The notes beneath the pieces were generated by a model. It did not search any database. It was not told where the DNA came from and saw nothing but the letters and a program-made list of their open reading frames with translations. Of a stretch of 64,000 bases of DNA, positions 41,447 through 47,684 are shown piece by piece. This stretch comes from Halobacterium jilantaiense (GTDB taxonomy: Archaea > Halobacteriota > Halobacteria > Halobacteriales > Halobacteriaceae): positions 868,001 through 932,000 of the forward strand of contig NZ_FOJA01000001.1 in the NCBI RefSeq assembly GCF_900110535.1, written 5' to 3'. A program made the translations under genes and the position numbers. Within the stretch, counting starts at the first letter, position 1, and each line of letters begins with the position of its first letter.

Positions 41447-41854
41447 TCAGTCTTCGAGCGCGTTCGCGATACGGTCGAGCTTGTTGTTCGTGCGCTCGAC
41501 TTCCTTGCGGAGCATCTCCAGTTCGCGCTCGACTTTCTCGCTGGTGCCGCTGTCGCCGGACTCCTCGCCGGGGCCGCCGCCCATCCCCGGCGGGCCGCCA
41601 CCGCCGCCCATCATGCCGCCCATCATCTGCGCGAACGGATTGCCGCCACCACCGCCGCCGCCGCCCATGCCGGGCGGACCGCCCGCACCGCCGCCCATCG
41701 CGTCCTTCATGCGCTCGCGGGGGTCTTCGCCGTCGCCCTCGTCGCGCTCTTCGGCTCGCTCCTGGCGAATCTCCTCGACGCGCTCCCGGAAGGACTTCTC
41801 CTCCCCGTCGTCGCCGTTCTCGGCGTCCGATTGGTCTGGTTCGTCGTCTGCCAT
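41447..41854 (-). CDS. Acidic protein with Gly/Met/Pro-rich low-complexity core
   Basis: 135 aa. Charged N-terminal region (residues 1-50), a low-complexity Gly/Met/Pro-rich block of about 50 residues containing repeated GGPPGMGGG, and a C-terminal coiled-coil helix (KVERELEMLRKEVERTNNKL). No enzymatic motif. Probably an oligomeric, partly disordered protein; function unknown. It converges with the second glycosyltransferase. Confidence 0.6.
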   Translation of the reverse strand: MADDEPDQSDAENGDDGEEKSFRERVEEIRQERAEERDEGDGEDPRERMKDAMGGGAGGPPGMGGGGGGGGNPFAQMMGGMMGGGGGPPGMGGGPGEESGDSGTSEKVERELEMLRKEVERTNNKLDRIANALED

Positions 41855-41917: not shown

Positions 41918-42361
41918 ATGCCGGATTCGGGAGAACGCCGACGCGTGCAGTCCCGCTGGCCCGCCCTGCTGGTCGTCGGGTTCGTCCTGCTCGCTGGCTG
42001 TGGGGGAACCGGCCCCACGGGCGTCACCCCCGAGAACCCGCAGACGACGTACGTGCCCGCCGAGACAACGACCGCGTCGTCGCCGCCTGCCCTCACCGTC
42101 CTGCACAGCGGCGACGGCCCGACGACGGTGCGGGTGACACTCGGCTCCGTGCCGACCGGGACGACGTTCTACGAGCGCGAGACGACCATGGACCCCGGCT
42201 CACAGCTCTACCTGACGAGCGAAGTCGCCGACCGCGACCAGTACCGGATTACGGTGTCGACAGCGAACGCGACTCACACCCACGACGTGTACGCCGGCGA
42301 GGGGTACGTCGTGACTGTCGCGAACGACTCGGCCATCGACGGCCGCCACACGACGGACTAG
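41918..42361 (+). CDS. Small lipoprotein
   Basis: 147 aa from the ATG at 41918. The signal peptide with lipobox LLAGCGG (about residues 23-29) gives a lipid-anchored protein on the outer face. A Thr/Pro-rich spacer follows, then a beta-sandwich-like domain of about 90 residues (TVRVTLGSVPTGTTFYER, RITVSTANATHTHDVY). A lipoprotein of similar layout is at 49849-50316. Function unknown. Confidence 0.75.
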   Translation: MPDSGERRRVQSRWPALLVVGFVLLAGCGGTGPTGVTPENPQTTYVPAETTTASSPPALTVLHSGDGPTTVRVTLGSVPTGTTFYERETTMDPGSQLYLTSEVADRDQYRITVSTANATHTHDVYAGEGYVVTVANDSAIDGRHTTD

Positions 42362-43116
42362 AACGCGCCGAGGCTGGACTGGACGTCCCGGTCGTCGGCA
42401 CCCGCCGTGAGGTCGTGGCCGACGAGGTCCCGCATGTCGACGCCGTAGGTGGTCCCCTGCCGGTCCAGCAGGAGGACGCGCCCCTTCGTCCCGCGAACGG
42501 TCCCAGTGAGCATCGTCTCCGCGACCGGCCGGCTGTCCACGTCGACGCCGTAGTCGAAGGCGAACTCCTCGATGGGGTCGAAGTCGTCGACCAGGGCTTG
42601 CCACGCCTCGTCGTCGACCGACTCGCCGAAGCCGTCGAGTTTAGTGGGGACGCGCACGCGGTCGGGGATTCGGTCGGCGATGCCGGCCTCGATACGGCGG
42701 GCGCGCCGGCCGTCCTCGACGGTCCGGATGTGCGCCGCGCGGTCGGCACCCTGCTCGCGGAGCCGGGTGTCGAGTCGCCACGAGCGCGTCACGCCCACCT
42801 TGAACGTGTCCGGCGCGAACGCCGCGAGGTAGACCGCGTGCTCCTCGTGACACGAGTCCAGCGGCATCGCGCAGTTCCCGGTGCAGCGCGCACACGGCCA
42901 CGTCGAGGTGTGTTCGTCGCAGTACGGAGCGTCCGGGCGCTGGCAGGTCCGGTGGCCGTCGCTGCCGCGGTCGACGCCCGCGCAGTGGCGGTCGCCCAGC
43001 GTGTAGGCCAGTTCGTTCCCGGCCACCAGCGGGACGCGGTCGACCTCGCCCGCATCGGCGACGCGGAGGGCTGCCGGCCCGCCGCCCGGAGTCGTCTCGT
43101 ACCCGACGACTTGCAC
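42358..43116 (-). CDS. DUF2797-family zinc protein
   Basis: 252 aa from the GTG at 43116 (VQVVGYETTPGGG). It has scattered Cys/His clusters (HCAGVDRG, TCQRPDAPYCDEH, CARCTGNCAMPLDSCHEEH) suitable for zinc, then a domain starting with AVYLAAFAPDTFKVGVTR like a GIY-YIG-related fold, which is typical of DUF2797. The last 4 bases overlap with the convergent lipoprotein gene. Role not known. Confidence 0.75.
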   Translation of the reverse strand: MQVVGYETTPGGGPAALRVADAGEVDRVPLVAGNELAYTLGDRHCAGVDRGSDGHRTCQRPDAPYCDEHTSTWPCARCTGNCAMPLDSCHEEHAVYLAAFAPDTFKVGVTRSWRLDTRLREQGADRAAHIRTVEDGRRARRIEAGIADRIPDRVRVPTKLDGFGESVDDEAWQALVDDFDPIEEFAFDYGVDVDSRPVAETMLTGTVRGTKGRVLLLDRQGTTYGVDMRDLVGHDLTAGADDRDVQSSLGAF

Positions 43117-43247
43117 GCGACGACGTATGACGGTCCCAGATAAAGCGGTGGCGCTCCCGGGCAGGCAGCGCGCGGCGGTGACACCGCCGTCACCGGGTGG
43201 CACGGACGCCCGCGAGCCCTTTTCCGCCGTCAACGACTAGACGAGGT

Positions 43248-43535
43248 ATGGCAGACGACTCCATCCCGGTCAGCGCCGACGTGCCCGACAGCCCGTTCCG
43301 AACCACCGGCACCGACCACGTCACGGTCTGGGGGAGCAACGCCGAGGAGACCATCGCGTTCTACCGCGACCTGCTCGGGATGCCGCTCGTGATGCGGCAG
43401 CCGAACCTCGACGACCCCTCGCAGACCCACCTGTTCTTCGACACGGGCGACGGCCGCATCCTCACCGTATTCGTCAGCGACGAGCGGTCCTCGAACCGCG
43501 GCCGCCTCCGCACGCAGGTCGGCGGCGTCCGGTAG
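43248..43535 (+). pseudogene. Truncated VOC/glyoxalase-family gene at deletion junction
   Basis: 95 aa left of a gene for a metal-dependent VOC protein: GTDHVTVWGSNAEETIAFYRDLLGM (in two parts) and FFDTGDGRILTVFVSD are the normal first strands with the metal His. The protein then reads VGGVR and stops, losing the usual HHLAF-type strand that carries the next metal ligand. The break coincides with that of the convergent truncated transporter gene, so DNA between them has been deleted. Confidence 0.75.
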
Positions 43536-44065
43536 ATGAGGCCGTTGTCCTCGAGGCCGCTGATGGCCGGGGACGTGCTCGCGGGCGAGCAGCCGACCAT
43601 TCCAGAGGGGATGAAGACGTTCTCCGCGACGGAGATGGTGACCTCCGAGGACGCCGCGCCCGTCACCGCCGGGTAACCGCCGGCGCGGAGCGACTGTGCG
43701 GCGGACTGCGCCGCGTTCGGGTCGGTCTGGGTGTCCTGGACCGAGAAGTCCAGTTCGAAGTCGGTCTCGCCTTCCAGCACGGTCTGCGGGAGGATGGCAC
43801 CGTTACGAATCGGGCCACCGAGGTCCGCGAGGTCGCCCGTGGTGGGCAGCAACACGCCTTGCTTGATGGTGCGGTCCATGGAGCCGCCACCGTCGGACTC
43901 CGTCGTCGTGGTGTCTCCACCGCCGCCCCCGCCTGATTCCGTCGTTGTGTCGTCATCACCGCTGTCGCCGTCACCGCCGCCGTCTCCGGTACAGCCTGCG
44001 AGTCCCGCGATGCCGGCTGCGCCGAGGCCGCGAATGACGTTGCGTCGATTGATTCGTTGAGCCAT
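43510..44065 (-). pseudogene. Truncated substrate-binding protein of a branched-chain amino-acid-type ABC transporter
   Basis: About 185 residues remain out of the roughly 400 expected. A twin-Arg signal with lipobox (RRNVIRGLG and LAGCTG), a Gly/Asp/Thr-rich linker, then IKQGVLLPTTGDLADLGGP and GAASSEVTISVAENVFIP and VGCSPASTSPAISGLEDNG are good LivK-type sequence, up to LIYRTPPT. The frame then continues as non-homologous sequence into the antisense of the VOC gene (to 43361). Its promoter (TATAAA at 44089) is intact, so the transcript may still be made. Confidence 0.75.
43517..43530. other. Deletion junction with short microhomology
   Basis: The block GGTCGGCGGCGTCC reads as Val-Gly-Gly-Val of the VOC frame on the plus strand and Thr-Pro-Pro-Thr of the transporter frame on the minus strand. 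Both are the expected residues there, so this short stretch probably existed in both genes and joined them when the DNA between was lost. Confidence 0.6.
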
Positions 44066-44088: not shown

Positions 44089-44094
44089 TATAAA
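44089..44094 (-). promoter_or_regulatory. TATA box of the truncated transporter gene
   Basis: TATAAA on the plus strand (TTTATA on the minus), 24-29 bases upstream of the start at 44065, giving a leaderless transcript. Confidence 0.55.
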
Positions 44095-44186: not shown

Positions 44187-45500
44187 ATGACTGCCAGACG
44201 GTTTCTCATCGTGTCGGCCGACGCCGCCCTCGCGACGGACCTCGCGTGGCAACTCCACCGCGAAGGCCACGACGTCAGACACTACGTCGAAGCGGACAGC
44301 GACCGGGACATCGGTGACGGGTTCGTCACACGGAGCGAGGACTGGCGTTCGGACGCCGACTGGGCGGACGTCGTCGTCTTCGACGATATCTGGGTCGGCG
44401 ACGAAGTCGGGACCGGCGCGCTCGCCGAGGAACTCCGCGAACAGGGAACGGCCGTCGTCGGCGGGACACCGAACACCGACCGCCTCGAGGAAGACCGCGG
44501 GTACGCCATGGACGTCCTCGAATCGCAGGGCGTGAACACCATCGACCACCGCGTGTTCACCGACTTCGGCGCGGCCATCGAGTTTGTCGAAGCGAACCCC
44601 GCTCCCTACGTCGTGAAGCCGCTCGGCGAAGTCCAGAACGTCAAACGGCTGCTGTACGTCGGCGACGAGGACGACGGCAGCGACGTCGTCGACGTCCTGC
44701 GCGCTTACGAGACGGCCTGGGGTCACCGCATGAAGGGGTTCCAGCTCCAGCGCAAGGTCGAGGGCGTCGAGGTGGCGGTCTGTGGCTTCTTCGACGGGAA
44801 CTCGTTCGTCGACCGGGTGAACTTCAACTTCGAGCACAAGAAACTGTTCCCGGGGAACGTCGGCCCGTCGACCGGCGAGATGGGGACGTCGATGTTCTGG
44901 GCGGGGCGCAACCGACTGTTCGCCGAGACGCTCGGCAAGCTCGAGGGGTGGCTCGCCGACGAGGGGTACGTCGGCAGCATCGACGTGAACTGCATCGTCA
45001 ACGACTCCGGCATCTACCCCCTGGAGTTCACGCCGCGGTTCGGCTACCCGACCATCGCGCTCCAGGAGGAATCCTTCGAGTCGCCGACCGGCGAGTTCTT
45101 CTACGACCTCGCACACGGCAACGACCCCGACCTCGACGTCCATCAGGGGTTCCAGGTCGCGGTGCGCGTCGTCCTCCCGCCGTTCCCGTTCGACGACGAG
45201 CAGACGTACGACGAGAACTCGCGGAACGCCGCCGTCGTCTTCGAGACGGACAGCCGCGAGGGCTACCACCTCGAGGACGCGAAGCGCGTCGACGGCCAGT
45301 GGCGGGCCGCCGGCGAGAGCGGGATGCCGCTGGTCGTCACCGGGAAGGGCGAGACGATGCAGGCCGCCCGCGAGCAGTGCTACGACTGCGTCGACGCGAT
45401 CACGATGCCGAACATGTACTACCGGGACGACATCGGGGAGCGCTGGGTCGGCGGTGACGGCGACCGCCTCCAGGCCTGGGGTTACCTCGGTCCGGCCTGA
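44187..45500 (+). CDS. PurD-like ATP-grasp protein
   Basis: 437 aa. Motifs of the ATP-grasp fold include PYVVKPLGEV (about 148-157), the hinge QLQRKVEGVEVAVCGFF, the GPSTGEMGTSMFW turn and the metal site YPLEFTPRFGYPTI. This is the pattern of glycinamide ribonucleotide synthetase. However the N-terminal domain is atypical (LIVSADAALATDLAWQL, WADVVVFDDIW) and lacks the usual Gly-rich PurD loop, so it may ligate another amine and acid. No purine genes are near. It is divergent from the truncated transporter gene. Confidence 0.65.
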   Translation: MTARRFLIVSADAALATDLAWQLHREGHDVRHYVEADSDRDIGDGFVTRSEDWRSDADWADVVVFDDIWVGDEVGTGALAEELREQGTAVVGGTPNTDRLEEDRGYAMDVLESQGVNTIDHRVFTDFGAAIEFVEANPAPYVVKPLGEVQNVKRLLYVGDEDDGSDVVDVLRAYETAWGHRMKGFQLQRKVEGVEVAVCGFFDGNSFVDRVNFNFEHKKLFPGNVGPSTGEMGTSMFWAGRNRLFAETLGKLEGWLADEGYVGSIDVNCIVNDSGIYPLEFTPRFGYPTIALQEESFESPTGEFFYDLAHGNDPDLDVHQGFQVAVRVVLPPFPFDDEQTYDENSRNAAVVFETDSREGYHLEDAKRVDGQWRAAGESGMPLVVTGKGETMQAAREQCYDCVDAITMPNMYYRDDIGERWVGGDGDRLQAWGYLGPA

Positions 45501-46712: not shown

Positions 46713-47684
46713 TCAGAAGATGGCGTCGTCGACGACGTGGGCGGGGCCGCCGACCTCCCAGACGTCGGTGTCGACCCCGCAGTCCGCGATGGTCGCCTCG
46801 ACCTCGTCGGCGTGCTCGGCTCGCGTGTTCACGTAGACGGTCGCGCCGGTGTCCGTCGAGAAGTACGCGGGCACGCCGTCCTCGCGGAGGTCGCGGACGG
46901 CCTCGAAGATTTCGAGGGTCTCGGGCTGCCAGTACACCCACCCCGAGGGACCAGTCATCGTGGTCGCGGCAAGCGACAGCGAGTCGTGTTCCGCCGTCTC
47001 GAACGTGCGCTCGAAGTCGCCCTCGCGGAGCGAGTCACGCACCACGCCGAGCTGGTGGTGAATGTGCGCCAGCCGGGCCTCGAACATGTGGCTGTCTTCG
47101 GCCTCGTCGTGGGCGGCCTGCGTCTCCTTGTACGCCGGTACCTTCCCGATGACGATGCGGAGGTCGTCCGCGAGGTCGTCGTCTACGTCGAGGCGCTCGC
47201 TCCGGCAGTCCTCGTCGTTCATTCCCGCGTGGAGGTCCGAGAAGCCGCCCGTGACCGCGCGCGCCGCCGACGCCGACCCGCGGCGCGCGATGGCCGACAC
47301 GTCCGGCAGCGTGAGGTCGAGGTCGAGCGCCTCGACGCACGCCAGCGCCGCCGCCGCGAACCCGGACGCCGACGACCCGAGGCCGATGTTCGTCTGGAAG
47401 TTGTTCTCGCTCTCCAGACGGACGCGGTGGTCGACGCCCGCGCGCCGCCGGGCCTCGTCGACGACGGACCGGATGCGGTCAGCCCCGCTCCCGTCGACCG
47501 TCTCGCCGTCCACGACGTACACGTCCTCCTCGCGGTCCGGGTCGAACGCGGCCGTCGTCGTCGTGTTCGACGGCGCGGTGCAGACGCTGATGGAGTCGTG
47601 GTACGGGAACCGGAGGTCGTGGTCCCGCATCCCGTGGTACTTCACCAGTCCCTGAATCGGGTGCGCTCGAGCGGTCGCTTTCAT
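46713..47684 (-). CDS. mvaD: Phosphomevalonate decarboxylase (MvaD family)
   Basis: 323 aa from the ATG at 47684 (MKATARAHPIQGLVKYHG). GHMP-like: ATP loop FQTNIGLGSSASGFAAAAL, GGFSDLHAGMND and a late VNTRAEHADEVE. In Haloferax, the homologue decarboxylates mevalonate phosphate to isopentenyl phosphate in the altered archaeal mevalonate pathway (established knowledge), so the same reaction is expected here. It supplies isoprenoids for ether lipids, including the substrate used by the prenyltransferase encoded at 28887-29726. Confidence 0.88.
   Translation of the reverse strand: MKATARAHPIQGLVKYHGMRDHDLRFPYHDSISVCTAPSNTTTTAAFDPDREEDVYVVDGETVDGSGADRIRSVVDEARRRAGVDHRVRLESENNFQTNIGLGSSASGFAAAALACVEALDLDLTLPDVSAIARRGSASAARAVTGGFSDLHAGMNDEDCRSERLDVDDDLADDLRIVIGKVPAYKETQAAHDEAEDSHMFEARLAHIHHQLGVVRDSLREGDFERTFETAEHDSLSLAATTMTGPSGWVYWQPETLEIFEAVRDLREDGVPAYFSTDTGATVYVNTRAEHADEVEATIADCGVDTDVWEVGGPAHVVDDAIF

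Follow-up and report, generated by a model that had tools for sequence, protein, structure and literature searches.

A very probable recent short-repeat-mediated deletion joining the 5' parts of convergent VOC and LivK-type genes in Halobacterium jilantaiense

Two convergent gene stumps and their join

The window analysed here is a 64,000-nucleotide stretch of the Halobacterium jilantaiense genome (C1:868001–932000 of G000; genome size 2.95 Mb, 2 contigs, 99.99% completeness), in which the 5' part of a VOC/glyoxalase-family gene on the plus strand abuts the 5' part of a LivK-type substrate-binding protein gene on the minus strand. The two parts meet at positions 43517–43530 through one copy of GGTCGGCGGCGTCC, a 14-mer that occurs once in the window (mean of 0.01 in shuffles of the window) and that is read both in the VOC frame (plus strand) and in the LivK frame (minus strand), just as the original prediction had it. 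We take this 14-mer to be the sole surviving copy of a direct repeat of 13–14 bases.

The VOC stump (positions 43248–43535, plus strand) encodes 95 residues up to a new TAG stop, ending in ...RTQVGGVR*, compared with ~203–204 residues for the intact form in congeners; the Pfam Glyoxalase model matches it over profile positions 3–61 of 121 and matches the intact gene of Halobacterium sp. TGN-42-S1 (G003), the closest relative that has the linked locus, over positions 3–117. The LivK stump proper (positions 43518–44065, minus strand) comprises ~182 codons from an ATG at 44065 that matches relatives, and its frame continues antisense through the VOC stump as an out-of-place tail of ~52 codons to a stop (positions 43361–43517, minus strand), which makes the whole frame 234 residues long from the ATG at 44065 to the stop at 43361. 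Pfam Peripla_BP_6 aligns with the LivK stump over positions 1–87 of 343, below the cut-off, and with the intact G003 gene over positions 5–311. A TTTATA motif (positions 44089–44094, minus strand), which we presume to be the TATA box of the LivK stump, sits 24 bases ahead of the LivK ATG and is invariant in all five aligned sequences (four relatives and the window); this supports the prediction that the transporter promoter remains.

An ATP-grasp gene (PurD-like, below the cut-off; window positions 44187–45500) adjoins livK. It is a plastic neighbor: the livK-adjacent place lacks it in G001, G003, and G010 and has it in G002, G004, G005, G007, G008, G009, and G012. On the other side, positions 41447–41854 (minus strand) hold a frame with a long glycine/proline/methionine-rich middle and charged ends, and similar frames occupy the same place in relatives.

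The intact locus in congeners and the missing stretch

We searched positions 43248–44065 of the window against 40 relatives, 12 of which are congeners, with the VOC and LivK parts matching separately in each genome. In nine of the 12 congeners, a single contig carries both VOC and livK, arranged and oriented as in the window and with both frames open across the break points. The start-to-start spacing of the two 14-mer sites in these genomes is 7219 (G003), 7848 (G010), 10501 (G007), 10904 (G001), 11368 (G005, H. bonnevillei PCN9), 12413 (G009), 12443 (G002), 12473 (G012), and 12495 (G011) bases, or 7.2–12.5 kb overall. The two genes lie on two contigs in Halobacterium sp. KA-4 (G004); G008 (87% complete, 210 contigs) has LivK only, and G006 has VOC only.

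Full-length VOC is found in 11 of the 12 congeners (none was found in G008), with an identity of 100% for the query's own genome, G001, and 86–96% for the other ten, and a livK frame of at least 431 codons is likewise found in 11 of 12 (none in G006) when the N-terminal 280 residues of LivK are used as query. Short forms of either gene are absent from the congeners. Both genes are therefore cut short and are not naturally short genes, and relatives do possess the intact locus that had been anticipated, with permease and ATPase genes between the two whole genes in nine of the 12. The VOC-side similarity to the window stops at 43528–43530, and the LivK-side similarity starts at 43517–43518, in each case in all 11 congeners that have the gene in question; similarity to relatives thus swaps from VOC to LivK at the 14-mer, and the two convergent genes are, as predicted, cut at one point.

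These comparisons bear on two other readings of the locus. Both truncated genes might encode short proteins that work and are under selection, instead of being debris, as their intact frames, start codons, and LivK TATA-like box would allow and as the lack of an excess of amino acid changes (see below) would suggest. We consider this very improbable given that the VOC product is missing half of its domain, that LivK is missing most of its binding domain and has acquired ~52 antisense residues, and that none of the congeners has the short forms, VOC being full length in 11 of 12 and livK reaching at least 431 codons in 11 of 12. Alternatively, the window could represent the older state and the relatives an insertion, a reading that finds some encouragement in the interval between VOC and livK, whose varying length (7.2–12.5 kb) and gene content indicate gains or losses of other genes. 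This is next to incredible, however, since both window genes end exactly at the join, nine of the 12 relatives have both genes whole and linked, and a state of two half genes can hardly be ancestral. Truncation of both genes in the window, against both whole with liv genes between them in congeners, is the pattern of a deletion and not of an insertion.

The corresponding interval in G003 contains, in order, the second half of VOC, a DoxX-family gene, two BPD_transp_2 permeases, two ABC ATPases, a small frame with no family match, and the second half of LivK. The missing piece was expected to hold the second halves of both genes and probably the permease and ATPase genes of the transporter, and the G003 interval includes all of these; the DoxX, permease, and ATPase genes, however, share the VOC strand and face livK instead of lying downstream of it on its own strand. 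The G003 genes at L025:1430–7582 exceed Pfam cut-offs for two BPD_transp_2 permeases, two ABC ATPases, and a Peripla_BP_6/ANF_receptor binding protein, which is the composition of a LivKHMGF-type ABC importer. The best NCBIfam models are LivM, LivG, and LivF for three subunits and UrtB followed by LivH for the first permease, and no subunit reaches the curated NCBIfam cut-offs (LivH, LivM, LivG, LivF) that would assign branched-chain amino acids as substrate. Its domain content makes the lost system a Liv-type importer, to which these cut-offs assign no substrate, and the lost DNA probably encoded a nutrient importer. By comparison with the congeners, the length lost would be ~7–12.5 kb.

The interval itself is variable. 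Other congeners have further genes here, among them a hydrolase-like gene, a second VOC-like gene, and, between livF and livK, a pair of frames (names assigned by eye). In G002, two frames inside the interval (L030:4409–6137) resemble, by eye, an ammonium transporter and a PII protein; matches to them occur in five other loci, which suggests gain or loss of nitrogen genes in the interval as well.

Fate of the missing DNA and age of the join

A move of the missing stretch to another place in G000 was considered and rejected. The second half of VOC has no match in G000, the second half of LivK finds no orthologue and only paralogs of 26–27% identity, and the DNA of the whole G001 interval gives long matches to the rest of G000 that never exceed 71% and are paralogs only. 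The search itself works, since the full VOC query recovers the orthologue in 11 of the 12 congeners. G000 does retain a complete paralogous livK-H-M-G-F operon at C1:1316652–1321687 (L044:3653–8688), which we rejected as a relocated copy: separate counterparts of this operon exist in G003 (87%) and in G007 and G010 (~80% each), genomes that also retain the VOC–liv locus. This operon could possibly serve as a backup for the lost importer. VOC and this transporter have presumably lost their functions, and the strain should be without one Liv-type importer and without this VOC protein, with the paralogous importer kept.

We looked for decay of the stumps and found private amino acid changes in 0 of 63 columns of VOC and in 1 of 76 columns of LivK, against 0–3 in other genomes, in a test that covers few columns. 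The VOC sequences of G000 and G003 are separated by 4.0 nonsynonymous differences at a dS of 0.258, and the nonsynonymous distance to outgroups is no greater for G000 than it is for G003 (e.g., VOC to G001, 0.041 and 0.042). Simple arithmetic gives ~28 VOC changes for free drift over half of the G000–G003 distance, compared with a total of 4.0 between the two genomes. The stumps thus lack an excess of amino acid changes, which indicates that the loss is recent, and the deletion postdates the split from G003 by far.

So young a join could also be an artefact of assembly or culture, the wild strain being intact and the join having been made by an assembler or on the bench; the lack of excess amino acid changes is consistent with a join that is very young or even artificial. 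We judge this unlikely. Assemblers rarely collapse 7–12 kb over 14 bases, the assembly consists of 2 contigs at 99.99% completeness, and even a deletion that arose on the bench would be a real feature of the strain.

A tree was built from the minus-strand neighbor at positions 42358–43119 and the VOC stump in 11 genomes, leaving out G005 and G008, each of which has one of the two genes missing from the stretch. This two-gene tree places G000 as sister to a G003–G006 fork that has 93/92 support. G006 (L033:1209–2892) has VOC whole but has lost livK, the ATP-grasp gene, and the gene after it; its match to the window picks up again at 46713. With VOC whole and similarity resuming only at that point, the loss in G006 is a separate event. 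A broader reading, which we hold to be rather doubtful, is that the VOC–liv–livK interval is a site of repeated loss in Halobacterium (by microhomology in the window genome and independently in G006), with GC-rich codon use making short repeats in opposed genes. If this were true, gene loss would be partly predictable from codon-made microhomology.

The repeat, its proposed role, and comparison with known haloarchaeal deletions

The exact 14-mer is present at the VOC site of four of 11 congeners (G001, G006, G007, and G010) and at the LivK site of none of 11, where GTCGGCGGCGTCC, the last 13 of the 14 bases, is present in four of 11 (G001, G003, G007, and G009). On these counts the homology is best termed one of 13–14 bases. 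Comparing the two sites within each genome gives a run of 13 identical bases in G001 and G007; elsewhere the number of matching positions out of 14 is 12 in G010, 11 in G009, 10 in G003, nine in G002 and G005, and eight in G011 and G012. As to the expectation that relatives would show the repeat at both ends, 13 identical bases are found in two of nine genomes, and a degraded version (8–12 of 14) in the other seven.

Random pairs of break points with at least 13 matching bases arise 5 (G001) and 3 (G007) times per 1,000,000 simulated, with a mean match of 0.8, so chance is far from accounting for a shared run of this length at the join. Further direct repeats of at least 13 bases, spaced at least 3 kb apart, number 18 pairs in G001 and 25 pairs in G007 across the region, which indicates that the join used one of several available and that the repeat is not exceptional in kind; such direct repeats are expected in GC-rich coding DNA. 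We conclude that the scar is very probably a recent short-repeat-mediated (microhomology) deletion. What speaks against this conclusion is that only 10 of 14 bases match in the closest relative, G003, and no more than 12 in seven of nine relatives; the repeat in the window lineage would have to be reconstructed from the genomes of other species.

We infer strand annealing as the mechanism. The ancestor would have had VOC (plus strand), DoxX, livH, livM, livG, and livF (plus strand), and then livK (minus strand), with 13–14 matching bases contributed by the Val-Gly-Gly-Val codons of VOC and, antisense, by the Arg-Thr-Pro-Pro codons of livK. Strands would have annealed at the two copies, most likely in the course of end-joining repair of a broken chromosome, with loss of all DNA between the copies and of one copy. 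Microhomology-mediated end joining sets out from a double-strand break that is resected by Mre11-Rad50. The same deletion could instead have come from fork slippage or template switching between the repeats with no broken end, a less probable but serious contender. A length of 7–12 kb is long for simple slippage; the product, however, would look identical, so end joining and break-free slippage are indistinguishable from it. In the available part of their survey of haloarchaeal deletions, the authors argue that their events are independent of double-strand breaks (PMC3119063). A search for Ku in G000 detected none (the control found Ku in one of 14 genomes).

Our literature search did not meet this particular deletion, and we make no claim that it is unpublished. 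The locus provides a base-exact and cleanly dated case of such a repeat-mediated deletion from a natural genome of Halobacterium, for which intact relatives allow comparison, and it carries a warning for annotation: the short VOC and substrate-binding open reading frames found here are remnants of longer genes and should not be taken for independent ones.

According to the accessible text, microhomology-mediated end joining operates in Haloferax volcanii, which has no Ku homologue (PMC7776575); deletion by annealing of short homologies is common to that process and to the scar described here, and G000 is likewise without a detected Ku. As far as the accessible portion of a second source goes, CRISPR self-targeting was used to induce deletions in mutant laboratory strains of Haloferax volcanii (PMC7521656), whereas the window scar lies in a natural genome. 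The closest parallel is found in the work of Dyall-Smith et al., the available part of which describes repeat-mediated deletions in Haloquadratum walsbyi C23 versus HBSQ001 over repeats of 4–20 bp (4–19 in most cases), haloarchaeal deletion cores of 10 bp to 34 kb, a 10,007 bp deletion over an 8 bp repeat in Halobacterium salinarum NRC-1 versus R1, and repeat copies that may differ slightly in the intact strains (PMC3119063). As in those deletions, one copy of a short direct repeat is left at the join, its length lying in the class range of ~4–20 bases. Unlike the deletions in that part of the survey, the break points here fall inside two convergent genes, so that one event cuts two genes, and the intact form comes from other species and not from a second strain of the same species. 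Deletions of this size by short repeats have already been described for Haloquadratum and Halobacterium; the window scar, well supported but ordinary, fits this haloarchaeal class on each point with a clear outcome and adds one case to it.
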